From: Fervidobacterium gondwanense DSM 13020
GTDB lineage: Bacteria; Thermotogota; Thermotogae; Thermotogales; Fervidobacteriaceae
NCBI RefSeq assembly: GCF_900143265.1
Contig: NZ_FRDJ01000008.1
Location: 1-64,000, forward strand
Direction: 5' to 3'
Length of the DNA: 64,000 nucleotides
Shown here: in pieces, positions 8,149 through 61,054 of the stretch
How positions within the stretch are numbered: position 1 is the first letter of the stretch
How the letters are laid out: each line of letters starts with the position of its first letter
Position numbers and translations under genes: made by a program
The notes under the pieces: generated by a model
The model's database searches: none
What the model saw: the letters and a program-made list of their open reading frames with translations, nothing else
Told to the model about the DNA's origin: nothing

Positions 8149-9096
8149 ATGAACAGGTACTTATTGCTCGTTGTTGTAGTGATCTTTGCTTCATCTACAT
8201 TTTTTCCTTACAATGTTTCATTTAAGAACTCCGTCGTTACTTCCGGCGGTCCGGTGACAATGTTGGAACTCACCGAGGCTTCAGACACTGATGTACCACC
8301 AGAAGTGCTTGAAAAGATAATCGTTGCATACTTGCCAGTTGGCAATTCGATATTGCTAAACAAGAGATATCTCGTGAATCTAATAAAAAAACGCGTCGGA
8401 GTTGTTGATGCTGTAATTGATGACGTGCCTGTCTTTGTACAAGCGAGGGCAACAGAGGTCAATCTTGAAGGCAGACAACAGGATATTTTAGATAGTCACT
8501 CATTACCTCAGAGAGTCATAGAAGAGTTATCAAAACACTATCCCAAAGATACCGTTTTCAAGTTGAAGAGCCAGACAGGTCAGTTGTTAGAGCACGATAG
8601 TTATCAAATTTCCGTTCAAGTTTCAAACAAAGCGTATCCGTTTGTTAGGGTGACATTCAAAAAGTCCGGCCGGACGGTTGGTTATGTGACTCTACAGTAT
8701 GATGCTATCTTAATTAGGAAGGTGGCATCTGTAAATAGAAAAGTAGATAAGGGAGAAATTATAGGTGTAAACGATGTAAAGTACGTTGAGGTCAATGTTT
8801 TAACCTTAAATAAAGTCCCTGTTTTTGAAGAAGATTTGCCACTCATGACTGATAAGGTCTTTCTCAAAGACGAGATTTTGGATCAAAGGTATATGAAAGA
8901 TGTCCCGATTATCGTCAAAGGTCAGCTTGTTAAAGCTTATAGTGTTGTAGGTGGAATAATGGTATCAACGTTAGTACAAGCTTTAGAGCATGGGTATGTA
9001 GGGAACGTAATTAGATTGAAGAATTTGGATAATGGGGCAATAATAACAGGTACTGTGAAAGAAGACGGAAGTGTGAGCGTTTTGGAGGTGAAGTGA
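8149..9096 (+). CDS. flgA: FlgA, flagellar P-ring assembly chaperone
   Basis: 315 residues from the ATG at 8149; a GTG two codons earlier is only 3 bp from the AAAAGGTG site, so the ATG with 9-bp spacing fits better. An N-terminal hydrophobic stretch (about 3-18) looks like a signal peptide. The C-terminal half is a SAF/ChapFlgA domain (V-N-R-K-V-D-K-G-E-I-I-G onward, then V-K-G-Q-L-V-K-A-Y and G-H-G/E-H-G-Y-V-G-N-V-I-R-L-K-N). FlgA helps FlgI assemble in the periplasm. It is followed 3 bp later by flgH. Confidence 0.85.
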   Translation: MNRYLLLVVVVIFASSTFFPYNVSFKNSVVTSGGPVTMLELTEASDTDVPPEVLEKIIVAYLPVGNSILLNKRYLVNLIKKRVGVVDAVIDDVPVFVQARATEVNLEGRQQDILDSHSLPQRVIEELSKHYPKDTVFKLKSQTGQLLEHDSYQISVQVSNKAYPFVRVTFKKSGRTVGYVTLQYDAILIRKVASVNRKVDKGEIIGVNDVKYVEVNVLTLNKVPVFEEDLPLMTDKVFLKDEILDQRYMKDVPIIVKGQLVKAYSVVGGIMVSTLVQALEHGYVGNVIRLKNLDNGAIITGTVKEDGSVSVLEVK

Positions 9097-9734: not shown

Positions 9735-10736
9735 ATGAGAATGAAAAGGACGGTAGTTGTAATTCTAATCGCACTACTCAGCATATCGACAATTTTTGCA
9801 GCAAATGTGAGGATAAAAGACTTTGCAAAATTCCGCGGTGCAAGGGATAACCAGCTTTTTGGTGTTGGACTTGTTGTCGGTCTAAACGGTACTGGTGATA
9901 GCGGTACTTTGAATTCAACACTCCTGGCGAATATGATGAAAAATTTTGGCATAAGTGTGAATCCAAACGACTTAAAAACGAGGAACGTCGCTCTTGTCAT
10001 GGTCGTTGCTGATATACCACCGTTCTATAAATCCGGCATGAGGCTCGATGTTGAAATAGCAAGTATAAATGATGCGAAGAGCTTGAGAAATGGGATTCTT
10101 GTTCAAACACCGTTGTACGGTGCTGATGGAAATGTATATGCCGTTGCACAAGGTCCAGTTTCGGTTGGTGGCGAAGAAGTTAAAGGGACTGCAAACCTTC
10201 AAAAGAGATTTCCGGTTGTAGGCTACATACCGGGTGGTGCTATAGTTGAAAGAGAGATACCAATGAGCATCGTTGATGCTAATTCTATTACGATACTTTT
10301 GGATAGACCTGATTTTACAAACGCTGCAAGAACAGCTGTGGCAATAAATACAAAATTCGGAGTTAATATTGCAAAAGCAGTCGATGCAGCGAGCATAAAG
10401 GTGAATATACCGAACGTATTCGCTGATGATGTGATTTCTTTCTTGGCGCTCTTAGAAGAGATAGAAGTTCCACTTGATACAATCGCACAGGTTGTAATTA
10501 ACGAGCGAACTGGGACAATTGTCTTCGGTGGGGACGTGAAGATTTCTGATTTCGTACTTTCTTATGGTAATTTCGTCGTTGTTATATCCAACGGTCAGAT
10601 AGGCGACAAGCAGGCAACGATTGGAAACCTTGTTACAGCGCTTAAATCACTCGGCGCAACACCACAGGATATTATCGCAATCGTCCAGGAACTGTACAAA
10701 GCAGGTGCGCTCTTTGCTCAGCTGAAGATTATGTGA
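9735..10736 (+). CDS. flgI: FlgI, flagellar P-ring protein
   Basis: 333 residues from ATG at 9735, with AGGAAGTGA upstream; the codon before it is an in-frame GTG and another ATG follows at 9741. It has a signal peptide (hydrophobic to about residue 20, ending A-N-V), then the conserved G-V-G-L-V-V-G-L-N-G-T-G-D and P-L-Y-G-A-D-G-N-V-Y-A-V-A-Q-G-P motifs, and the usual length of about 340. FlgI forms the periplasmic ring around the rod. 26 bp after flgH and 35 bp before flgJ. Confidence 0.95.
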   Translation: MRMKRTVVVILIALLSISTIFAANVRIKDFAKFRGARDNQLFGVGLVVGLNGTGDSGTLNSTLLANMMKNFGISVNPNDLKTRNVALVMVVADIPPFYKSGMRLDVEIASINDAKSLRNGILVQTPLYGADGNVYAVAQGPVSVGGEEVKGTANLQKRFPVVGYIPGGAIVEREIPMSIVDANSITILLDRPDFTNAARTAVAINTKFGVNIAKAVDAASIKVNIPNVFADDVISFLALLEEIEVPLDTIAQVVINERTGTIVFGGDVKISDFVLSYGNFVVVISNGQIGDKQATIGNLVTALKSLGATPQDIIAIVQELYKAGALFAQLKIM

Positions 10737-10771
10737 TGTGAAACTCTCTGTTATTATGGAGGGAGCGGAAA

Positions 10772-11155
10772 ATGGGAATTGATATAAAGAAAATAGAGCA
10801 ACTTACAAAGAATTTCAATTCGCCAGAATATCAAAAACAGCTCCGGAAGGTCTCCGAGGAGTTTGCTGCTTGGTACGTGTACGAGGTATTCAAAAAGATG
10901 TATGATACAGTACCAAAGAGTGGACTTTTACAGGAAAGCTTTGGCGAGCGCTGGTTCAGAGAGATGCTCTTGCAACAGTACTCACTAAAAGCTGCAAGAA
11001 CAGACTTAAAGGACTTGTCGGATATGATATACAGAAGCTTGGGCGGTAAGACCTTGAGCGAAGATGTTAACTCGGCTAAGAGTTTCGAGAATAAAATGAA
11101 TATGTTAAACGCCCTGAACTCTCTGATTTCTCAAAATAAGGAATCTGGAGAGTGA
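10772..11155 (+). CDS. flgJ: FlgJ-type rod-binding protein without a muramidase domain
   Basis: 127 residues matching the N-terminal rod-binding domain of FlgJ: an E-E-F-A-A-W-Y helix followed by K-M-Y-D-T-V-P-K-S-G-L-L and a conserved R-E-M-L-L-Q-Q region. The glycoside hydrolase half found in proteobacterial FlgJ is absent, as in many other phyla. ATG at 10772 follows GGAGGGAG. The last gene of the ring operon; its last 51 bp overlap the 3' end of the opposite-strand clamp gene. Confidence 0.8.
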   Translation: MGIDIKKIEQLTKNFNSPEYQKQLRKVSEEFAAWYVYEVFKKMYDTVPKSGLLQESFGERWFREMLLQQYSLKAARTDLKDLSDMIYRSLGGKTLSEDVNSAKSFENKMNMLNALNSLISQNKESGE

Positions 11156-12205
11156 CGGCGAGCTGAAAAGTGTGAACTCACCTGAATTTCCTATCACTAC
11201 GTACTGACTTCCTATCCTGTTAAGTGCACTTCTCAGCAAGTATGCCTTTGTCTTCACTGAAAATTCAGCACTTGCCTCGGCGTTGACTGAACCTTTGTAT
11301 GCAATCGAGCCTTGCTGGGAGACTACAACGATTTCATCATGCCTTGAGTACACCTCTACATCGGAGAACCTTCCTGAGATGAGTGAACGGCGCAGAAGCC
11401 TTTGGATTTGTTCTTTGTACACGCGTGCGACAGGTACAATACTCCGCACGACTTCCCTAATTCTATCAGGTGCCCGCTCAGGTCTATCTCCACATATCGT
11501 GTAAACATCACCGCAGTATATAAGAAGCTTATCTGAATTTGGGTTATAAGAAAGCTCTATACTGTCGGTTTCTTCTGTATCTAATGCTTTTAGAAGATGT
11601 CTTGTTGAAACGTACGGAATGCTCAGAGAGAACCTTTCTGGTTTTTCGCCCGTACCATCGGATTGCTCATTTGTAGGCCTATTCTCAATCTTTGAATATG
11701 CAATAAGCCCAAGATGGCTTGATACAATCTCAAGTCGGTCAAAAGCGTAGAATAAATCTGTATAGCTACCTTCTTCAAGAAAGCATGAAACAAAATCAAG
11801 CTCAGAGAGGATACGCTTTTTTTGGAAAACTACTTTGTTCTCAAACCTTGGTAATTTAATCTCTTCTTGTATAAAGTTCATTCTCAGGCGCAAAAGCTCA
11901 TTTTGGGACTTGAGCGTAAGTATTCCATCTTGGAATGACAACGTGAGTTTACCGTTCAGTTCAGATACGAACTGTTTCACAACATCGAGTGGTATCTCGA
12001 ACGGATGGAGTGATTTGTAGAAAAATGTGGTGAGAGGGAAGAATCCGGTAAAGCAACCATCTGAAGCTTTCAGATAAAGCTTCTCATTTTCCGCAAAGAA
12101 TGTGAGCTTTCTCATAGAAGGCTCAAGTGTGCCGCAAACCTTATCTGCCTTTTTGATAGCTTGCCTGATTTGTTCTGAGTCGACCTCGATTATGTAATTT
12201 CCCAC
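11105..12205 (-). CDS. Divergent DnaN-like sliding clamp paralogue
   Basis: 366 residues, the exact size of bacterial beta clamps, with three domain-sized parts that follow the clamp pattern: an N-terminal helix with R-Q-A-I-K-K-A, then K-L-Y-L-K-A-S-D-G; a central part with L-S-I-P-Y-V-S-T-R-H-L-L-K-A-L; and a C-terminal part starting after G-D-R-P-E-R-A-P-D and ending in L-S-R-F-L-I-L. Standard clamps end in a Y-x-V-M-P-M/I-R motif; here it is weak. So it may be a diverged copy rather than the replicative clamp. It follows clpX and tsaD on the minus strand, 42 bp after tsaD. Assignment rests on pattern, not on strong motifs. Confidence 0.5.
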   Translation of the reverse strand: MGNYIIEVDSEQIRQAIKKADKVCGTLEPSMRKLTFFAENEKLYLKASDGCFTGFFPLTTFFYKSLHPFEIPLDVVKQFVSELNGKLTLSFQDGILTLKSQNELLRLRMNFIQEEIKLPRFENKVVFQKKRILSELDFVSCFLEEGSYTDLFYAFDRLEIVSSHLGLIAYSKIENRPTNEQSDGTGEKPERFSLSIPYVSTRHLLKALDTEETDSIELSYNPNSDKLLIYCGDVYTICGDRPERAPDRIREVVRSIVPVARVYKEQIQRLLRRSLISGRFSDVEVYSRHDEIVVVSQQGSIAYKGSVNAEASAEFSVKTKAYLLRSALNRIGSQYVVIGNSGEFTLFSSPSLSRFLILRNQRVQGV

Positions 12206-12247
12206 CTATCTCACCACTTGCTCACCACTGAATTCCTACCATTTTCT

Positions 12248-13261
12248 TCACCATTCATCTCCAATCATTTCAAAGAGATTTGGCGACGGTTCAAGTCCCA
12301 GTCCATCGTTTTTGCCGTCTTCAAGCAATGCCATTCCAGCACGGGCTATCATTGCGGCGTTGTCTGAGCAAAATTCAAGAGGAGGAATGAAAAAGTTAAA
12401 TTCCAAAGTGTATTCAGCAAGTTTCTCGCGAAGGCGGCTATTCGCAGCAACGCCACCTGCGAGGACTATATTTTCTATTCCGAAATCCTTAGCTGCTTTT
12501 GTGGTTTTGTGCAACAACACATCGATCATTGCTTCTTGAGCACTTGCTGCGAGGTCTTTAATCGGAAGTTCTTCAATCCCTGCATCCTTTAATCTCTTGA
12601 TTTCGTAGAGCACGGAAGTTTTCAACCCGGAGAAGCTGAAGTCGTAGTCGGGATCGTACATCTTCGGTCTTGGAAATCCAAAAGTCTTTGGATTACCATC
12701 TTTTGAAATCCTGTCGATTTCTGGACCGCCAGGATATCCAAGTCCAAGCAGCCTTGCAACTTTGTCAAAAGCTTCACCGACTGCGTCATCTACGCTTCTA
12801 CCGATTATCTTTATGTGCATCGATTCATTGACTTTCAGTATTAACGTATGCCCTCCCGAAACCATCAATACGATGTACGGAGGTCTGAGTTCTGGGTAAG
12901 CGAGATAATTGGCATAAACGTGTCCAACGATGTGATTCACACCAACAAGAGGTTTGTTGTATCTTATAGCGAGTCCCTTGGCAAAAGAAACGCCAACAAG
13001 GAGTGCACCGATAAGTCCAGGACCTTTCGTAACTGCTATTCCATCGATTTCATTGATGTCTATTTGTGTTTCTTTCACGAGTTGAGAAAAAAGAATCGGG
13101 AGCTTTTTCAAATGCTCCCTTGCAGCGATTTCCGGCACAACTCCGCCGAATTTCTTATGAGTTTGTATCTGCGAATAGACAAGGTTAAGAATAACATCGT
13201 TGTTGTTAACAAGTGCAATCGATGTTTCATCGCAGCTTGTTTCTATTCCGAGTACGAGCAT
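12248..13261 (-). CDS. tsaD: TsaD, tRNA N6-threonylcarbamoyladenosine transferase subunit
   Basis: 337 residues, normal length. G-I-E-T-S-C-D-E-T-S at the N-terminus, the metal-binding H110-I-V-G-H114 motif (commonly H-x-E-G-H, here Val), V-S-G-G-H-T, and D-N-A-A-M-I-A-R near the C-terminus. With TsaB, TsaC and TsaE it transfers threonylcarbamoyl to A37 of ANN-reading tRNAs. Start ATG at 13261; 15 bp downstream of clpX in the same operon. Confidence 0.95.
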   Translation of the reverse strand: MLVLGIETSCDETSIALVNNNDVILNLVYSQIQTHKKFGGVVPEIAAREHLKKLPILFSQLVKETQIDINEIDGIAVTKGPGLIGALLVGVSFAKGLAIRYNKPLVGVNHIVGHVYANYLAYPELRPPYIVLMVSGGHTLILKVNESMHIKIIGRSVDDAVGEAFDKVARLLGLGYPGGPEIDRISKDGNPKTFGFPRPKMYDPDYDFSFSGLKTSVLYEIKRLKDAGIEELPIKDLAASAQEAMIDVLLHKTTKAAKDFGIENIVLAGGVAANSRLREKLAEYTLEFNFFIPPLEFCSDNAAMIARAGMALLEDGKNDGLGLEPSPNLFEMIGDEW

Positions 13262-46428: not shown

Positions 46429-47562
46429 TTAAAGTGGCAAAGCTAATTTGCCGAGAATTGATGTTTTCATTGCTCCAGTAACTACTTTTTCATGAGCCAA
46501 ACCCCTTAGGAATAGCTCTCCCAAGAACGCAATTGCTGTTGCTTCTCTAAAGTCTATCAACCACTTGTCAGGAACAGTAATTTCATAGCCAAGGGTTTTT
46601 ATATCCCAGAGCAGTGTTTTGTTGTATGCTCCTCCGCCAACAACTACAAGTTTCTGTGTATTTGGCAGGTGTTGTTTTAAATTAATTGCTATCATCTCTG
46701 CTGTAAAGCGCGTTACCGTTCTTAATAGATCTTCTTTAGATGTTGAAACGGGTGTTTTTAGAAATCCTTCGTTGTAAACTTCTCTTCCAGTTGTTTTAGG
46801 TGGCTTTTTGTGTATGTAGTCAGTATTTTTTTCAATCAAGTATTCCAACAGTTCATTATTTATCCTTCCTTGTGCTGAGAGTTTGCCATTATTGTCATAT
46901 CGGATGTTGAAATGTTTTTGGCAAACTAAATCAATCAAGCAATTACCTGGTCCGGTATCAAATGCCACAAGATTGTTGTTATTGTCATATGCTGTAACAT
47001 TGGAGATTCCACCTATATTCAATACAGCTGTTTGTTGGTCCGTTAGCAAGAAAACTGAATCTAAATATGCACTAATAGGTGCTCCTTGCCCGCCTAAAGC
47101 TACGTCCTTTTTTCTAAAATCGTAGATCACAGGTTTTCCAAGCTGTGTAGCCAAAACATCGGCTTCTCCTATTTGAAGTGTTGCCCCATGCTCTGGTAGG
47201 TGGTAAATAGTTTGTCCGTGGTATGCTACAAAATCATAATCCCAACCCAGCTGGTTAATCATTTGAGCGTGTATCTGTGCGAGTTCAAAGTTTAGAAGTG
47301 TTATATTTTCAACATTGGAAAGAGATTTATTGTATGAATCCACTATCTTTTTTTGAAGTTCTTCTTCATATGGAATCGTTAAAGCACTTTCTACACGAAA
47401 GTTTATAGCCTCGTAGTTGTATGTAAAAACAACATTGGCAATATCGAGACCATCTGCAGAAGTACCGGACATCAAACCGAGTACTTTATGCACAGGCTTG
47501 TTGATTGAGCTGAGGAACTCGTTCCAATCCCAGATTTTGATTAGCTTGTTCAATCTCTTCAC
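46429..47562 (-). CDS. anmK: AnmK, 1,6-anhydro-N-acetylmuramic acid kinase
   Basis: 377 residues with the family opening G-L-M-S-G-T-S-A-D-G-L-D (commonly S-L-D-G), V-L-N-I-G-G-I-S-N-V-T and D-T-G-P-G-N-C-L-I-D. It opens the anhydro ring and phosphorylates anhMurNAc to MurNAc-6-P, the substrate of MurQ, encoded in the other arm. Its presence implies the cell meets products of lytic transglycosylases. Spacing of 19 bp to the SIS gene and 22 bp from the amidase gene. Confidence 0.93.
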   Translation of the reverse strand: MKRLNKLIKIWDWNEFLSSINKPVHKVLGLMSGTSADGLDIANVVFTYNYEAINFRVESALTIPYEEELQKKIVDSYNKSLSNVENITLLNFELAQIHAQMINQLGWDYDFVAYHGQTIYHLPEHGATLQIGEADVLATQLGKPVIYDFRKKDVALGGQGAPISAYLDSVFLLTDQQTAVLNIGGISNVTAYDNNNNLVAFDTGPGNCLIDLVCQKHFNIRYDNNGKLSAQGRINNELLEYLIEKNTDYIHKKPPKTTGREVYNEGFLKTPVSTSKEDLLRTVTRFTAEMIAINLKQHLPNTQKLVVVGGGAYNKTLLWDIKTLGYEITVPDKWLIDFREATAIAFLGELFLRGLAHEKVVTGAMKTSILGKLALPL

Positions 47563-52793: not shown

Positions 52794-54566
52794 TTATTTT
52801 CTAAATGTTGTCCATACGGTGAATGTTGGTAATCCTTCCTTCGATTGGACAACATTTCCTATACTCTTGTGACAGCCAAAGAAGTTCATCTGCCTTGCTA
52901 CGAAAATTACTGGTAAGTACTTGTAATACAGTTCCTGCCACTCATCGTATAGAGTTTTTCGCTTTTTTTGATTCATTTCGATCTGTGCTTTTTCAAATAT
53001 GTCCCAAATTCGTTTCTCCCAATCAAACATTTCAGAGAATACAGGTGATGGAGGATTCGTATTCTTATCCATTGTTGAATAGTGCCAGTAGTACAGCTGC
53101 TGACCTGGTTGCCATATTGCTTTCCTAAGCTGTGGGTCTGGTTGGTTACCGAATGCGCGGATACCACATTCGAAGTTACCTGCGCCGAACATTTGTCCAA
53201 CGACTGACGAATCAAGTATTTGGAGATTTGTTTTAACGCCTATTTTCTTAAGTTCCTCACTGAATACATAAGCAATTTGTTGGTAATCTTTTGGTTGGTT
53301 TTGAACAAGTATTGTGAATTCAAACGTTGTGCCGTCGGGGAAGTCTCTTAAGCCGTCCTTGTTTTTATCAACTAACCCGAGTGAATCAAGAATGCTCGCG
53401 GCTTTCTTCAAATCAAACGACCTCATCAACTGCTCAACCTTTGGATTGTAGAACGCTTTATTCGTCGGTAGTACAAGACCACCACCAGGAATTGCGAGGC
53501 CATTGTAGATTTCTTCAATTATCCTTTCTCTGTTTAAAGCATATTCCATAGCTTCTCTGAATTCAGTTTTCCTGAACAACTCTCTTAGCTTTGGATTAGC
53601 GACATCAAAGTTGAAAGCTATGTGGACTGGGCTTGGAGTAGAGCCTATTGGTTTGGAAGCAAATAGTAGATATGGGGCATTCCCAGCAACTTCGATTTGC
53701 TTTAGTCTTGGATAATCTGATGCCGAAACAGCAGTGTAATCTATTTCACCAGCAATAAATTTAGCTAATCTTATCTCTGCGTCCTTTATGATTAGATATT
53801 CCAGCTTATCGAAGTAGGGAAGCTGGTTGCCGTATTTATCTTTTTTCCAGAAATAAGGGTTCTTCTCAAGGACGATTTTCTGGTCAACTATAACTTGTGA
53901 AAGTTTATATGGTCCATTGACTACGATCTCAGAAGGAGGGGTATTTGTTAGCCAGAGTTTATTAACAGATGCTAAGTCGTTCTTATCAATAAGGGGTTCG
54001 AGCTTGTGTTTTGGATATATGTACACGGCGGTTAAGACTGTTAAGAATGCGCCATATGGTGATGGTAAGTCTGCTCTTACAACCTTGTTGTTAATCTTCG
54101 TCCATGTGACGGGTTTATTCACGCCCTTTTCATCTGGTATCGTGAACCTGTCGACCGAATTACCGCGAGCATATTTGTTCATGACAAAGTATTGCATCGT
54201 AAATATCACGTCATCTGCCGTTATCGGTTTGCCATCAGACCAGTATGCATCTCTTATGTAAAACCATACTTGCTTTCCATCACTTGAGACAGTCCATGAT
54301 TTTGCAATTGCAGGTCTAATCTCGTTTGTTATAGGATGGTATTCAACGAGTGGGGACATAAGTGGTCCCATGATAACACTGTACGCCGATGAATCAAGCG
54401 AACCGTAGAGCAGGAATGATTCAGGTGTTGAAGGCAATGCTAATCTTAAAGTACCACCGAGTTTCGGCTGAGCAGAATTTGTTAACATTGCGTCTTCTAT
54501 GAAGAAATCCGTTGCCGTGAAAACCACCGCTATCAGAATCCACAGAACAAAGAGAACCCTTTTCAT
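52794..54566 (-). CDS. oppA: OppA-type solute-binding protein
   Basis: 590 residues, family 5 of bacterial solute-binding proteins (about 540-600 residues). Signal peptide about 1-20 without a lipobox Cys, so the mature protein is likely free in the periplasm or toga space. Core motifs: P-L-V-E-Y-H-P, W-T-V-S-S-D-G-K, W-S-D-G-K-P-I-T-A-D-D-V. ATG at 54566 with GGAGGTGAAGGGG. Such proteins bind peptides or glycans; the salvage genes around it point to muropeptides, by inference only. Confidence 0.9.
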   Translation of the reverse strand: MKRVLFVLWILIAVVFTATDFFIEDAMLTNSAQPKLGGTLRLALPSTPESFLLYGSLDSSAYSVIMGPLMSPLVEYHPITNEIRPAIAKSWTVSSDGKQVWFYIRDAYWSDGKPITADDVIFTMQYFVMNKYARGNSVDRFTIPDEKGVNKPVTWTKINNKVVRADLPSPYGAFLTVLTAVYIYPKHKLEPLIDKNDLASVNKLWLTNTPPSEIVVNGPYKLSQVIVDQKIVLEKNPYFWKKDKYGNQLPYFDKLEYLIIKDAEIRLAKFIAGEIDYTAVSASDYPRLKQIEVAGNAPYLLFASKPIGSTPSPVHIAFNFDVANPKLRELFRKTEFREAMEYALNRERIIEEIYNGLAIPGGGLVLPTNKAFYNPKVEQLMRSFDLKKAASILDSLGLVDKNKDGLRDFPDGTTFEFTILVQNQPKDYQQIAYVFSEELKKIGVKTNLQILDSSVVGQMFGAGNFECGIRAFGNQPDPQLRKAIWQPGQQLYYWHYSTMDKNTNPPSPVFSEMFDWEKRIWDIFEKAQIEMNQKKRKTLYDEWQELYYKYLPVIFVARQMNFFGCHKSIGNVVQSKEGLPTFTVWTTFRK

Positions 54567-54600
54567 GCCCCTTCACCTCCAAAGTGAGATAGTCAAACTT

Positions 54601-54628
54601 ATTATATTCCCTATTCCACTTTTCTCAA
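54601..54628 (-). promoter_or_regulatory. Promoter of the oppA arm with an overlapping inverted repeat
   Basis: Minus strand TTGAGA (54623-54628), 16-bp spacer, perfect TATAAT (54601-54606). The -35 is one half of an inverted repeat TCTCAA-N12-TTGAGA (54623-54646), which could be an operator for the GntR regulator encoded in the other arm. Confidence 0.65.
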
Positions 54629-54899
54629 AATAAAGAAAAATTGAGAGAAGAGGAGCTTATGAACAATAATTGACCTTATTTTTTGATTTCTTATGTTATG
54701 TCAAAAAAGCAAGAAATTGTTAAAAGATATAAATGTTATATCATTAAGATATACGTCTGAAACTCTGCCAATCACTTCTTTGGCCTTGATTTAGATTTGA
54801 CCTGAAATCGTAATGTCATACCTTTGAATACGTTTTATGCTTTAGAAAGATTTAATTTTACATATATGAGTGTAGTAGTAAGTAGTAATAGGTAAGGTA

Positions 54900-55827
54900 T
54901 GCACGCTTTTTACGGTTGATGTTATTTCCGATCTGAAGGAATGGTTCTTTGGAGCGCACTGCGTCGATAGTACGAATAGTCAAGTTTGTTTTGCAATCAA
55001 ACAGTCTCAGATATTGTCCATGCTTCTTGAGATAAAACTGGGGTGAAATAACTAGTGTAGATGGTAAGCCAGTAGACACTGTAGTTTATTTTTAGACATC
55101 TGTGGATTCATGTTAAATTCGAAAGAAGTATGAAGTGAGTAGAACGGCAATTTCCGAAGTTCAGCCGCACCTTATCTGAAATCAGACAAACAGCACTTTA
55201 AGTGCCGAAAGAGATGAATCCTTCTGGTTGAAGTTCTTTAAAGGATTTTGGGTAGTGGAAAAGAAATTGTTCAATTCTTGCGATATGGAATCACCTTGGT
55301 TCAGATGGAAAATCACGATGTCACGCGAAGAGTTTGAACAGAGTATCAGTAAGAGACTTCCTGCCAGAGAAAAAGCAGACCAAATATTGAAAGTGGATGC
55401 GGTGAGAACAGTTGAAGGTAAAGTTATACATGTTAACGAGCTCAACTCTCAATGGTGAACATAAAGATTTAATCGCCATTTGAAGAGGTAAGAGTGGCTT
55501 AGTCATAACCTTGCGGATCATAGCAGAGAACGGTGTGTACGATGTTGATAAAGAGTACAACATACGTTTCGTTAGAAGGCTGACTAAATCGATAACAGGC
55601 TTTTCAAGAGACATTCTTCTCGAAAGCAACGCTTTGACAATTGTAAACGACTATTCAGTTGTGCCGAGTGGTTACTTCGAGCTTCTCGTTGAAAGAAGAG
55701 ACAATAGAATACCTCAGGTTACATTCTACGGGGTGGCAATGACCACGATGTTGGTATGAGTCAGTATGGTGCTAATAACCTGGCAAGAAGGGGAAGAGAT
55801 TATCAAGAGACTCTTAGTGCATTGTAA
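54900..55827 (+). pseudogene. Decayed SpoIID-type lytic transglycosylase gene
   Basis: Pieces of a SpoIID/LytB domain lie in order in different frames. From 55042: G-E-I-T-S-V-D-G-K-P-V-D-T, then three in-frame stops, then E-S-P-W-F-R-W-K-I-T-M-S-R-E-E-F (55288 on) to a stop at 55458. From about 55500 in another frame: V-Y-D-V-D-K-E-Y-N-I-R-F-V-R-R. From about 55737 in a third frame: H-D-V-G-M-S-Q-Y-G-A, the hallmark end motif, to TAA at 55827. Upstream of 55040 only weak similarity remains, so the start is uncertain. SpoIID cleaves glycan strands with anhydroMurNAc ends. The rest of the 1.3-kb gap (54629-54900) holds nothing I can name. Confidence 0.8.
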
Positions 55828-55870
55828 GAAGAGGAAACTGTGAAAATGGATTAATTCAATCAGGAGGACA

Positions 55871-56953
55871 ATGAAGATGGTAAGGAATGGAATCGATGTG
55901 CTTGATTATCAGTCTCTCAAAAATTACAGAATAGGCTTGGTCAGTAATTATTCTTCAGTTAATTCTAAGGGTGAACTGCTTACAGACATACTTCTAAGTA
56001 AGGGATTAACTCTTAGAAAACTCTTTATACCAGAGCACGGACTTTATCTAGCAGCAGACGGAATGGAGATATCTGATTTTTTTCACCCTAAGTTAGGAAT
56101 TCCAGTTATAAGCGTTTACGGAACTAGAGATGAAGTCTCTTGTGAGATGCTCGAAGATGTCGATTTGATAATGTACGACATTCAAGACGTGGGTCTTAGA
56201 TATTACACCTTCATCTACGCTTTAGCCAATATGATGAAAGCTGCAGCAAAGTGCGGCGTAAAATTTCTCATCTTAGACAGGTTTAACTTGCTTGGAAGAA
56301 AGGTCTTTGGCCCAAGAATGCCAGAGGGTATTAATTCAATAATCGGCGGTTATGAACTTCCTGTACAGTATGGCCTGACAACGGGTGAACTCGCATTGTA
56401 TTACAAGAAATACCTTAAGCTCGATATAGATTTGGAGATTGTACGGTGCGAAAATTGGAACGGGGAGGCGTTTCCAGAAACAGGAATTTTTTGGAACGTT
56501 CCTTCCCCTAATCTTCCAACGTTTTCATCACTATTGTGCTACGCAGGCATATGCTTTTTCGAAGCAACTAATTTGAGCGTTGGAAGGGGCACTACAAAGC
56601 CTTTCGAATTCTTAGGTGCACCCTGGGTTGATGAAAATGACATGTACGAGTATCTCAAGCATAGATTTCCGAATCTTTTCTGCCGGAAACGGCAGTTTAT
56701 ACCTCAGTATAGGGAATACGCACAAAATGTATGTAACGGCGTTGAATTTTTCCCAAAGCAGGATGATAACTTCTTTGAAATCGCGGTTGCATTGTTTGAG
56801 TATTTTGAAAAATATGAAGAGTTTAAAGTTGATTATCAAAGGTTGGAAGTTTTCACAGGTGTGAGGGAATTCATGAAAAATAAAGAAAAATTCTTGAGTT
56901 TTGACCTTTGTTCATACCTCGAGTATGTGGAGGATCTACTCTTGTACAATTAA
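55871..56953 (+). CDS. namZ: NamZ-type exo-beta-N-acetylmuramidase (DUF1343)
   Basis: 360 residues from ATG at 55871, or 358 from the ATG at 55877, which has better spacing from AGGAGG. Family motifs: E55-H56-G, Y-D103-I-Q-D106-V-G-L-R-Y-Y-T-F, D-R-F-N-L-L-G (usually D-R-P-N-P), and E-A-T-N-L-S-V-G-R-G-T-T-K-P-F-E. NamZ releases MurNAc from the non-reducing end of peptidoglycan fragments. The Bacillus enzyme is secreted; this one has no signal peptide, so it probably works in the cytosol. Starts the plus arm, 25 bp before nagZ. Confidence 0.9.
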   Translation: MKMVRNGIDVLDYQSLKNYRIGLVSNYSSVNSKGELLTDILLSKGLTLRKLFIPEHGLYLAADGMEISDFFHPKLGIPVISVYGTRDEVSCEMLEDVDLIMYDIQDVGLRYYTFIYALANMMKAAAKCGVKFLILDRFNLLGRKVFGPRMPEGINSIIGGYELPVQYGLTTGELALYYKKYLKLDIDLEIVRCENWNGEAFPETGIFWNVPSPNLPTFSSLLCYAGICFFEATNLSVGRGTTKPFEFLGAPWVDENDMYEYLKHRFPNLFCRKRQFIPQYREYAQNVCNGVEFFPKQDDNFFEIAVALFEYFEKYEEFKVDYQRLEVFTGVREFMKNKEKFLSFDLCSYLEYVEDLLLYN

Positions 56954-56978
56954 AACCGGAATCTTAGGAGGGGATTTA

Positions 56979-58487
56979 GTGAGAAGGATAAACGAGGAAA
57001 GTATCGGAAAACTATTTATGATTGGCATTTACGGTACGGAGCTAACAAAAGAGACGAGAGATGTTCTTGCACACATAAGACCTGGGTCTGTCATTCTTTT
57101 CTCTCGCAATATAGTAGGTCCAGAGCAAGTTAGGAAACTGATAGATGATATATCCAACTTCCTTGGTTACAAACCTATCATCGCTGTTGACCAAGAAGGC
57201 GGGAATGTTGTGAGGCTGAAAGATGGATTCAACACCCTCCCAAGTCCAATGGCTTGTGCTGCAAGCCGCGATGTAGAGCTCTTCAAGAAGGCAGTCTACT
57301 TAACATCCTTGGAGATGAGAGCAGTCGGTGTGGATTGGAATTTGGCCCCTGTTGTAGATATAAACGTTAATCCGTTGAATCCAGTAATCGGAATACGCTC
57401 TTTTGGCGACGAGCCAGAAATTGTAACTAAGTTTTCGAACGCTTTCGTGGAAGCGTCGGAAGAGGCAGGAGTTGCGACGTGCTTAAAACACTTCCCCGGT
57501 TTGGGAAGCGTTTCAATCGATCCGCACTTTGACCTGCCAGTCATAAACAAGACAATTGATGAACTACTCAATTTTGATTTGGTACCTTTCAAAAATGTGA
57601 AATGCAATGCATGGATGCCGTCTCATGTGTACTTTCCAAGAATTCAAAAAGATGGTCTGCCAGCCTCTCTATCTTCAGAAATAGTAGATATAGCCAGAAT
57701 TAGACTTGGTTTCGACGGTGTTATAATAGTTGATGATTTACTTATGGGAGGTACTGGCAAATTTACAATAGAAGAAAAAACGTTGAAAGCATTCAACGCG
57801 GGGAACGATATCTTGACTATCTGCCACGAACCGGAAAAACAAATAAGAGCATTCGACAATTTCTGTGAATACGTTAACCAAAATACTGACCTGAAAAGGC
57901 GAATCATAGAAAGTTTAGATCGTATAGAAAATTCATTCAGCAAGGTTAAGTCTCACGCTCTTTTTGAACACATAGATAATGGACGTTTTGTTAGAGAAGC
58001 AAAGGGAACGATAGATGAGCTCGTTAGAAAATCCATCACCATTGTAAATCTGCGCGATTATTCATTGCCTCTCGAAGAGGTAGACATGGTATTAACAATG
58101 CTTGGTGTTCCTGGTTCTCCAGTTGTGGATCAATCTCTGCCAGTTCCTCAGATAACGCAAGAACTTTCAAGACTATTCAACGCTTATTTTGAGATTATCT
58201 CTGATACGAAATTGCCAGAAATAGAGAAAGTTAAGGGTAAAAAAATCCTCTTATTCACTTTCGATATGTACAGAAGCAAGTCACTCGTTAATTTCATAAA
58301 AGAGCTCGACTCATATTCCAAACTGCTACTTATCGCTCTTAAAAATCCATATGATGCTTTTTATTCGAGAAACTCTATTGTCCTTTACGGTTCATCGGCG
58401 ACACATCAGAGAATATTGCTTGACGTACTTTTAGGAAAAGTACATGCCGAAGGTAAACTACCAGTCAAACCATTGGAGGTGGTGTAA
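56979..58487 (+). CDS. nagZ: NagZ, GH3 beta-N-acetylglucosaminidase
   Basis: 502 residues from GTG at 56979 with AGGAGG 7 bp before. GH3 TIM barrel (1-330) with K-H-F-P-G-L-G, the acid/base dyad D181-P-H183 (usually D-S-H), and nucleophile D252 in I-I-V-D-D-L-L-M. A second domain (about 370-502) follows, as in Bacillus-type two-domain NagZ. It removes GlcNAc from muropeptides. No signal peptide, so cytosolic. Overlaps murQ by one base. Confidence 0.92.
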   Translation: MRRINEESIGKLFMIGIYGTELTKETRDVLAHIRPGSVILFSRNIVGPEQVRKLIDDISNFLGYKPIIAVDQEGGNVVRLKDGFNTLPSPMACAASRDVELFKKAVYLTSLEMRAVGVDWNLAPVVDINVNPLNPVIGIRSFGDEPEIVTKFSNAFVEASEEAGVATCLKHFPGLGSVSIDPHFDLPVINKTIDELLNFDLVPFKNVKCNAWMPSHVYFPRIQKDGLPASLSSEIVDIARIRLGFDGVIIVDDLLMGGTGKFTIEEKTLKAFNAGNDILTICHEPEKQIRAFDNFCEYVNQNTDLKRRIIESLDRIENSFSKVKSHALFEHIDNGRFVREAKGTIDELVRKSITIVNLRDYSLPLEEVDMVLTMLGVPGSPVVDQSLPVPQITQELSRLFNAYFEIISDTKLPEIEKVKGKKILLFTFDMYRSKSLVNFIKELDSYSKLLLIALKNPYDAFYSRNSIVLYGSSATHQRILLDVLLGKVHAEGKLPVKPLEVV

Positions 58488-59431
58488 TGAAAAAAGATGA
58501 TTTCAAAGAAGAGAAGACAATGTTCGAAGGACTCGAAACAGAGAGAGTCAATCCTGTCTCGCAGGAAATAGACAGGTTAGACGTAATGAGCATTTTGCGA
58601 ATAGTAAATGATGAGGATAAAAAGGTTGCAAATGCTGTTGAAAAAGTTATTAACAAAATCGCCATGGTGATTGATTATTGCATTGAAGCGATAAAGAGTG
58701 GCGGCAGGGTTATATATGCCGGAGCAGGTACGAGCGGGAGAATAGGTTTTATCGATGCGGTTGAAGTTGTACCAACGTTTGGGGTACCTGAAGGTGTTTT
58801 TGTACCTTTAATAGCTGGAGGAGAAGAAGCACTCAGAAGGTCTGTTGAAGCAGTTGAAGATAACTTCGAACTTGGACGTGAAGACGCAAGAAGGATAGAG
58901 ATAAACAGCAACGATATGGTTATAGGCATAACCGCAAGTGGTAGGACCCCTTATGTTGCGGGTGTTTTGGACTACGCCCGGGAAAACGGTGCACGTACAG
59001 CATTGATTTGCAATGTCAATAAACCAGCACTTTCTGGGTTTGCCGATATTGTTATCTCCATAGAAACTGGACCTGAAGTTATATCTGGAAGCACGAGGAT
59101 GAAAGCAGGTACATCACAGAAGATGGTCTTAAATATGATAAGCACTACAACAATGATTAAATTGGGAAAAGTATACAAGAACTACATGGTTGATGTGTTA
59201 GTGCTTAATGAAAAACTGCGTGAGCGAGCAATAAGAATCATAATGAAAACAACAAGTACTGACTACAAAACGGCTTCAGAATTCCTTGCGAAAGCTAACA
59301 ACTCACCAAAGATAGCAATCCTCATGATACTAACCGGCAAGAGTAAAGAGGAGTGTCAACAGCTATTTGGAAAATACACAAGTATATCTGACGTGCTATT
59401 ACATCTGTTAGACAAGAAAAATGAGTGCTGA
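58487..59431 (+). CDS. murQ: MurQ, N-acetylmuramic acid 6-phosphate etherase
   Basis: 314 residues. SIS domain with G-A-G-T-S-G-R-I-G and D-A-V-E93, and A-V-E124, at the places of the two catalytic glutamates of E. coli MurQ; G-P-E-V-I-S-G-S-T-R-M-K-A-G-T is the family hallmark. It cuts the lactyl ether, giving GlcNAc-6-P and D-lactate. Start overlaps the nagZ stop (TAATG). Confidence 0.97.
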   Translation: MKKDDFKEEKTMFEGLETERVNPVSQEIDRLDVMSILRIVNDEDKKVANAVEKVINKIAMVIDYCIEAIKSGGRVIYAGAGTSGRIGFIDAVEVVPTFGVPEGVFVPLIAGGEEALRRSVEAVEDNFELGREDARRIEINSNDMVIGITASGRTPYVAGVLDYARENGARTALICNVNKPALSGFADIVISIETGPEVISGSTRMKAGTSQKMVLNMISTTTMIKLGKVYKNYMVDVLVLNEKLRERAIRIIMKTTSTDYKTASEFLAKANNSPKIAILMILTGKSKEECQQLFGKYTSISDVLLHLLDKKNEC

Positions 59432-59446
59432 AGGGGTGGTTGATAA

Positions 59447-60163
59447 ATGGACAAAAATGTTATTCCATTATACTATCGCATATACAACGAACTTCGTAAC
59501 AGGATACTAAGTGGATATTACAAAGATGGAAAACTTCCACCCGAAATGGAACTCTGTGCCGAATTTGATGCGAGTAGAATAACAATAAGAAATGCCCTAG
59601 AACAGCTGAGAAGAGAAGGACTAATATCGCGTTCTAAAGGACTTGGGACTTTCATCAAGAAGTTCGAAAGTGAAGAGCAGTTGACAAAGTTAACCGGTTT
59701 TACTGATGAAATGAAAGGTCGAAAAGTAACATCTAAGGTGCTTGAGAATCGTCTTGTCAATATTCCGGCAGAAGCGCAAGAATGCTTTGGCTTAGCATCG
59801 GGAACACTTGTTGTGTTGTTAAAGAGAATTCGTTACATTGACGAAAAGCCCATTGCTATTGAATCAGCTTATCTCAATCCATCTGTTGATTTGAGGTTGT
59901 TGAACGTTCTTCACAAGGACATGGAGAAGGAATCCCTTTACCACTTCATCCAAAACGAACTGTCCATCAACCTGGCATATGCAGAAGAAATTTTGGAAGT
60001 TACTAAACTCTCTAAAGACGAGGCTAATTTACTTGGCGTAAAACCAGGTGAATGTGCGATACTCAGAAAAAGGTTTACTTATACTGATACACAAAAATGT
60101 ATCGAGTACGTTCTCTCAATTTACCGCGGTGACGAATACAAATTCAAAGTTGTAAGAAAGTGA
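59447..60163 (+). CDS. GntR/HutC-family regulator of the salvage island
   Basis: 238 residues: an N-terminal winged helix (Y-R-I-Y-N-E-L-R-N-R-I, later A-S-R-I-T-I-R-N-A-L-E-Q-L-R) and a C-terminal UTRA ligand domain (about 85-235). Members of this subfamily sense sugar phosphates such as GlcNAc-6-P or GlcN-6-P (NagR). Inside the operon between murQ and the kinase, it most likely represses both arms. ATG at 59447, AAGGGGTGG upstream. Confidence 0.88.
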   Translation: MDKNVIPLYYRIYNELRNRILSGYYKDGKLPPEMELCAEFDASRITIRNALEQLRREGLISRSKGLGTFIKKFESEEQLTKLTGFTDEMKGRKVTSKVLENRLVNIPAEAQECFGLASGTLVVLLKRIRYIDEKPIAIESAYLNPSVDLRLLNVLHKDMEKESLYHFIQNELSINLAYAEEILEVTKLSKDEANLLGVKPGECAILRKRFTYTDTQKCIEYVLSIYRGDEYKFKVVRK

Positions 60164-60172
60164 GGAAAGCGG

Positions 60173-61054
60173 ATGATTGCTCTTGGCATAGACGGCGGTG
60201 GAACGTCTACAAAGGTTTGCTTAGCTATTCCAGATAGAAAGGTTGTGATATTGGAGTTCTCGATACCATGTGGAATCAACCTTACTTCCACGCCGTCTGA
60301 TATTCAGCTGGAAATTCTAAACAAAATACGAGATGAGATAAATAGGAGAACCTCAGGATTAGAGTTTTTTGATAGTGTAATAATCTCAATCTCTGGTGGT
60401 GGTTCGTCTTCGAGAAGACTCAACTTCAAAAATCTCGTTTCTACTGTTTTTAGAGCGGGAAAGATAATTGTGCTTTCAGACATCGAAGTGTTAAAGGAAA
60501 TAGTTTTGAAAGGCAGAACTGGTATATTGGTGATATGCGGCACTGGGAGCATAGCCATCTCTCACACAGGAAAAAGAGTGGGTGGTTGGGGACACCTGTT
60601 TGGAGATGAAGCAAGTGCGTTTTCGATTTCTTTGGAAATATTCAGAAGATTTTTTGAATATATAGATGGAGTTGAAGAATACGACAAGATTTTTGATGTG
60701 CTCTTAAACTTTTACAAAGTCACTAGCGTATTTGACTTGACTACTATCCAGCTCGAAAGTGATTTCAAAAGAAAGATAGCGTCCTTTACCGAACATGCAC
60801 CGCTAACGCCTCTTGTTAGGAAAATTATAGATGAACAGCTAACTAAACTCACGCAGAAAATTTCCTACCTCGCATCCACAGAGAATGTGTCCGATATATA
60901 CTATTTCGGTGGAACGTTTAAGAACGAATACTTCACTCAAGTGTTTTGCAAAAAACTCCACCGTTTCAACCTCCATTATTCTGACATAAAACCGCACGTT
61001 GAACTTGCACTTGATGCGCCTCATTTTTTGGAAGCAAGCAAAAACAATACGTGA
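60173..61054 (+). CDS. BadF/BadG-family amino-sugar kinase, MurK/NagK-like
   Basis: 293 residues with the ASKHA phosphate-1 loop G-I-D-G-G-G-T-S-T-K at the N-terminus, S-I-S-G-G-G-S-S and C-G-T-G-S-I-A, then V-G-G-W-G-H-L-F-G-D-E-A-S, the GlcNAc-kinase hallmark. Enzymes of this family phosphorylate GlcNAc, and MurK from Clostridium acts on MurNAc as well. No MurNAc-PTS is seen, so this kinase would supply both GlcNAc-6-P for NagA and MurNAc-6-P for MurQ. RBS GAGGAAAGCGG. Confidence 0.87.
   Translation: MIALGIDGGGTSTKVCLAIPDRKVVILEFSIPCGINLTSTPSDIQLEILNKIRDEINRRTSGLEFFDSVIISISGGGSSSRRLNFKNLVSTVFRAGKIIVLSDIEVLKEIVLKGRTGILVICGTGSIAISHTGKRVGGWGHLFGDEASAFSISLEIFRRFFEYIDGVEEYDKIFDVLLNFYKVTSVFDLTTIQLESDFKRKIASFTEHAPLTPLVRKIIDEQLTKLTQKISYLASTENVSDIYYFGGTFKNEYFTQVFCKKLHRFNLHYSDIKPHVELALDAPHFLEASKNNT

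Follow-up and report, generated by a model that had tools for sequence, protein, structure and literature searches.

The region 54918-55845 (+) of the window, which is the whole 64,000-nucleotide stretch analysed here, is a SpoIID/LytB-family pseudogene, the spoIID2 remnant. Its family is known and the pseudogene itself is unremarkable; the interest lies in its setting, a peptidoglycan salvage island. The results favour, with a probability of about 0.85, the reading that the remnant is a dispensable, island-linked paralogue, likely the former leader of the namZ operon, which was lost by ordinary decay. The features are summarized in Table 1.

Table 1. Features of the remnant and of the surrounding salvage island (window positions unless a locus is named)
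Feature	Position	Strand	Remarks
anmK, anhydroMurNAc kinase, intact	46429..47562	-	PF03702 265 bits
oppA1, solute-binding protein	52794..54566	-	heads the oppA1BCDF-serine hydrolase-anmK-SIS-nagA arm (down to 44394)
Candidate operator TGTTATATCA, between oppA1 and remnant	54734..54743	+	motif shared with congeners; putative function
Other TGWTATAWCA sites	L035:6730-6739; L013:10269; L036:2558; L151:9203
SpoIID2 pseudogene, residues 168-480 of a 482-aa exported SpoIID/LytB protein	54918..55845	+	5' third deleted, 6 frameshifts, 6 stops
C-terminal hallmark piece GGNDHDVGMSQYGANNLARRGRDYQETL, part recognised by a SpoIID profile	55732..55824	+	TIGR02669 E=9.4e-9 on the last piece alone
namZ, exo-beta-N-acetylmuramidase family	55871..56953	+	PF07075, PF20732; no signal peptide seen
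nagZ-type beta-N-acetylhexosaminidase	56901..58487	+
murQ, MurNAc-6-phosphate etherase	58487..59431	+	NF003915 386 bits
GntR/UTRA-family regulator	59447..60163	+
BadF-family sugar kinase, probably for MurNAc/GlcNAc	60173..61054	+	PF01869; weak NagK match

Identity and lesions of the remnant

Translation of the three plus-strand frames gave SpoIID/LytB pieces that are collinear across the region. In the congener G007 the intact protein has 482 aa, and the frame-aware protein-to-DNA alignment placed the remnant on its residues 168-480; 181 of the 306 codons were identical, with six in-frame stops and six frameshifts, and 169 of 306 identities were obtained against the SpoIID2 of G024. The alignment with G007 scored 789, while eight shuffles of the DNA scored between 31 and 43. 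The three pieces were jointly retrieved by tblastn with E=7e-66. In the whole-genome profile scan TIGR02669 (SpoIID_LytB) matched 55555-55818 (E=1.1e-9) with 39 bits; a fragment is expected to fall short of the curated cut-off, as this one does. The alignment and the profile match bear out the sequence-only reading, which had described SpoIID fragments in order in three frames with several stops; its placement of the remnant also stood, with the limits corrected from 54900-55827. The Pfam profile PF08486, which it had proposed as a check, gave no match on the remnant because this profile covers mainly residues 122-213, mostly deleted here; the TIGR02669 match and the full-length comparison, taken as decisive, were positive. 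The RNA family search over 54500-55900 found none.

The remnant starts at residue 168, so that residues 1-167, holding the signal-like N-terminus and the motif PSEVPSWFEKEAIKAQ with the catalytic Glu, are absent. Neither a continuous open reading frame with an export signal nor an N-terminal SpoIID domain with the catalytic Glu is left. Of the intact protein, E144 is missing together with the larger part of the PF08486 region; G007 and G008 have both. By the alignment offset with 5txu, E144 aligns with E101 of C. difficile SpoIID, which needs this residue for activity (PMC6221140). The gap of 351 bp from oppA1 to the remnant is too small to hold the missing 5' third, and the search for a second spoIID2 piece in this gap, upstream of oppA2 or in G001 gave chance-level scores only. 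The C-terminal hallmark, earlier given as VGMSQYGA, is present in altered form, GGNDHDVGMSQYGA compared to GGNGHGVGMSQYGA in the intact copies; against the GHGVGMSQYGA hallmark the remnant shows NDHDVGMSQYGA, with two Gly to Asp replacements.

Over the same part of the gene, divergence at second codon positions was 23.9% between the remnant and G007, compared to 11.8% for the intact G007-G024 pair, while divergence at third positions was alike (57.2% and 58.5%, respectively). This codon pattern fits a long evolution under selection followed by loss of selection.

The salvage island and the intact SpoIID2 of relatives

The left arm of the island on the minus strand carries oppA1BCDF, a beta-lactamase-fold serine hydrolase, anmK, a SIS-domain protein and nagA. 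The right arm on the plus strand carries namZ, nagZ, murQ, gntR and the BadF-family kinase, and is followed by a second opp set on the minus strand. Every gene neighbouring the remnant is open and undamaged, and profile matches revealed NamZ, NagZ, MurQ, AnmK and NagA all to be intact. Together with the alignment, this upholds the earlier view that the salvage island for wall sugars is real and that a dead SpoIID gene separates its two arms. A gap of 25 nt separates the 3' end of the remnant from the start of namZ downstream, and the two run in the same direction. The motif TGWTATAWCA was found upstream of namZ in the window's genome (G000, before the remnant), G001 and G007, and also upstream of oppA2 in G000 and G007; it is a candidate operator for the GntR/UTRA regulator.

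The remnant resembles the SpoIID/LytB proteins (TIGR02669, PF08486; SpoIID of B. subtilis, C. difficile and Waddlia) in its C-terminal hallmark and fragment order, and differs from them in its deleted catalytic region and broken frame. Like the murQRP-amiE-nagZ-ybbC (namZ) cluster of B. subtilis (PMC5061867), the island groups NamZ, NagZ and MurQ with a serine-hydrolase gene. Unlike that cluster, it has ABC importers of the Opp type in place of the MurP PTS, together with a BadF-family kinase, a GntR regulator and AnmK, and its enzymes appear cytoplasmic. The Agrobacterium YejBEF-YepA system, from another phylum, is comparable as far as its description goes in tying peptide-type ABC import to recycling enzymes (PMC9790009).

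Intact 482-aa SpoIID2 orthologues with a signal-like N-terminus are present within the same salvage island in the congeners G007 and G008. The island of these two is the same gene for gene, but oppA1 and namZ stand head to head without spoIID2 between them, and the intact gene lies at the outer island end upstream of oppA2, from which it is separated by a terminator-like sequence. The proposed check for an intact orthologue at the same spot in related species was therefore positive for the island and not for the spot. The intact orthologue passes TIGR02669 (158 bits, cut-off 83.3) and scores 133.4 bits against the sporulation equivalog TIGR02870, under its cut-off of 234.75; it is thus not the sporulation SpoIID proper.

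Among 45 genomes of the order, intact SpoIID2 was found in G007, G008, G024 and G043, and the remnant only in the window's genome. No second genome with spoIID2 adjoining namZ was found among the genomes compared. The SpoIID2 of G024 (L037, 9591-11024), a member of another family of the order, shows 66% identity to that of G007 and lies outside any salvage island. No other member of that family among those compared has it, and lateral transfer is possible. When named genomes were scanned with the SpoIID2 alignment, the matches were one member of the order (Thermotogaceae AUK250, G043) and distant proteins of Bacillota, with no namZ in the vicinity; a scan with the window's NamZ gave no match. 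The sporadic distribution of SpoIID2 suggests lateral movement or repeated loss.

The placement of the remnant also bears on an alternative which is unlikely, though the strongest of the rivals: that a 5'-truncated copy was moved beside namZ by rearrangement and was never functional there, the original being lost separately. The position unlike that in G007 and G008, the missing 5' third and the lack of any SpoIID2 trace upstream of oppA2 agree with it, while the direction of the remnant, the short gap to namZ and the candidate operator at 54734 would suit a gene that once headed the operon.

Other strand cutters and AnmK

The sequence-only reading had held that the strain lost its own strand-cutting step. 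This was contradicted by the genome, which retains SpoIID1, an intact 813-aa SpoIID/LytB protein (L001, C2:158783; TIGR02669 184.6 bits) carrying the catalytic Glu motif SSEMPSTYHLEALKAQ and FGHGIGLSQ, and two SLT-type lytic transglycosylases, which are intact and show the E-S and GLMQ/GMMQ motifs expected of such enzymes. MltG/YceG is widespread in bacteria. As an alternative cutter, MltG/YceG (PF02618) was absent from all 21 related genomes searched, and the argument for redundancy therefore relies on SpoIID1 and the SLT proteins.

AnmK was found in 27 of 61 related genomes, with a SpoIID domain in seven of the 27 and without any in the other 20, including the congener G001 and the family member G009; three related genomes have SpoIID without AnmK. 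AnmK thus does not require SpoIID. Waddlia SpoIID is a muramidase on denuded strands and gives non-anhydro ends (PMC6635528), hence a SpoIID enzyme need not feed AnmK. The claim that AnmK needs such an enzyme was not sustained on either count.

The proposal that loss of SpoIID2 removed the cell's own strand cutting, and turned a recycler of its own wall into a scavenger of other cells' walls, is accordingly very improbable. It draws on the import and cytoplasmic breakdown arms being intact and on the death of the exported cutter dedicated to the island, but the retained SpoIID/LytB protein and SLT transglycosylases and the persistence of AnmK without SpoIID speak against it, and no positive evidence for such a change was obtained. 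That the gene is functional and was broken by sequencing or assembly error, a general possibility with a 26-contig draft, has a negligible chance given twelve disabling lesions in 930 bp, the deletion of one third, the Gly to Asp changes in the hallmark and neighbouring genes that are all open.

Decay of spoIID2 and erosion of the island

Under the favoured reading of ordinary decay, the ancestral spoIID2 would most likely have been first in a namZ-nagZ-murQ-gntR-kinase operon. This former membership is suggested by the position of the remnant; against it, spoIID2 of G007 and G008 stands at the outer end, with the terminator-like sequence before oppA2. Its product would have been an exported glycan-strand cutter freeing wall fragments outside the membrane, which the Opp transporters of the island would have imported for breakdown inside. 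With a second SpoIID protein and two SLT transglycosylases in the cell, the gene was probably dispensable. It would then have lost its 5' third, and stops and frameshifts would have gathered without selection. The remnant presumably has no protein product now and could serve at most as an untranslated leader before namZ.

The island is also eroded elsewhere in the genus. G001 keeps most of it, with namZ cut to residues 11-86 and opp1 gone. The namZ scrap of G001 is of 76 residues (L151, C1:203500-218474, at 8832-9059 on the minus strand); nagZ, murQ and anmK remain, and the opp1 transporter is missing between the scrap and the serine hydrolase. G002 keeps the serine hydrolase, anmK, SIS and nagA genes intact and has opp1 in shards. 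At 10082-12883 (-) of this locus (L152, C4), oppB1 and oppC1 are shards, oppD1 is missing and oppF1 is shortened. G004 and G006 are without namZ and anmK. An IS110-family transposase gene lies between oppB1 and oppC1 in G007 (L036, 5691-6845, minus strand) and is absent at the near-identical locus of G008 (L039).

The genus is thus losing this island bit by bit, and the decay of spoIID2 is one example. A wider reading is offered tentatively and is rather improbable: the genus would carry a wall-sugar salvage island that includes an exported SpoIID-type cutter of its own, a pair of Opp importers and a common operator, and every species would be losing it from another gene (spoIID2 here, namZ in G001, opp1 in G002), so that the present species would have to rely on general transglycosylases or outside wall fragments to supply the pathway.

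The dead spoIID2 does not show a change of lifestyle, and its loss looks like ordinary gene decay. The remnant marks a clear stage in how a thermophilic genus loses a pathway of peptidoglycan salvage. Its intact counterparts in the congeners make a candidate for a SpoIID enzyme linked to salvage in a lineage that does not sporulate.
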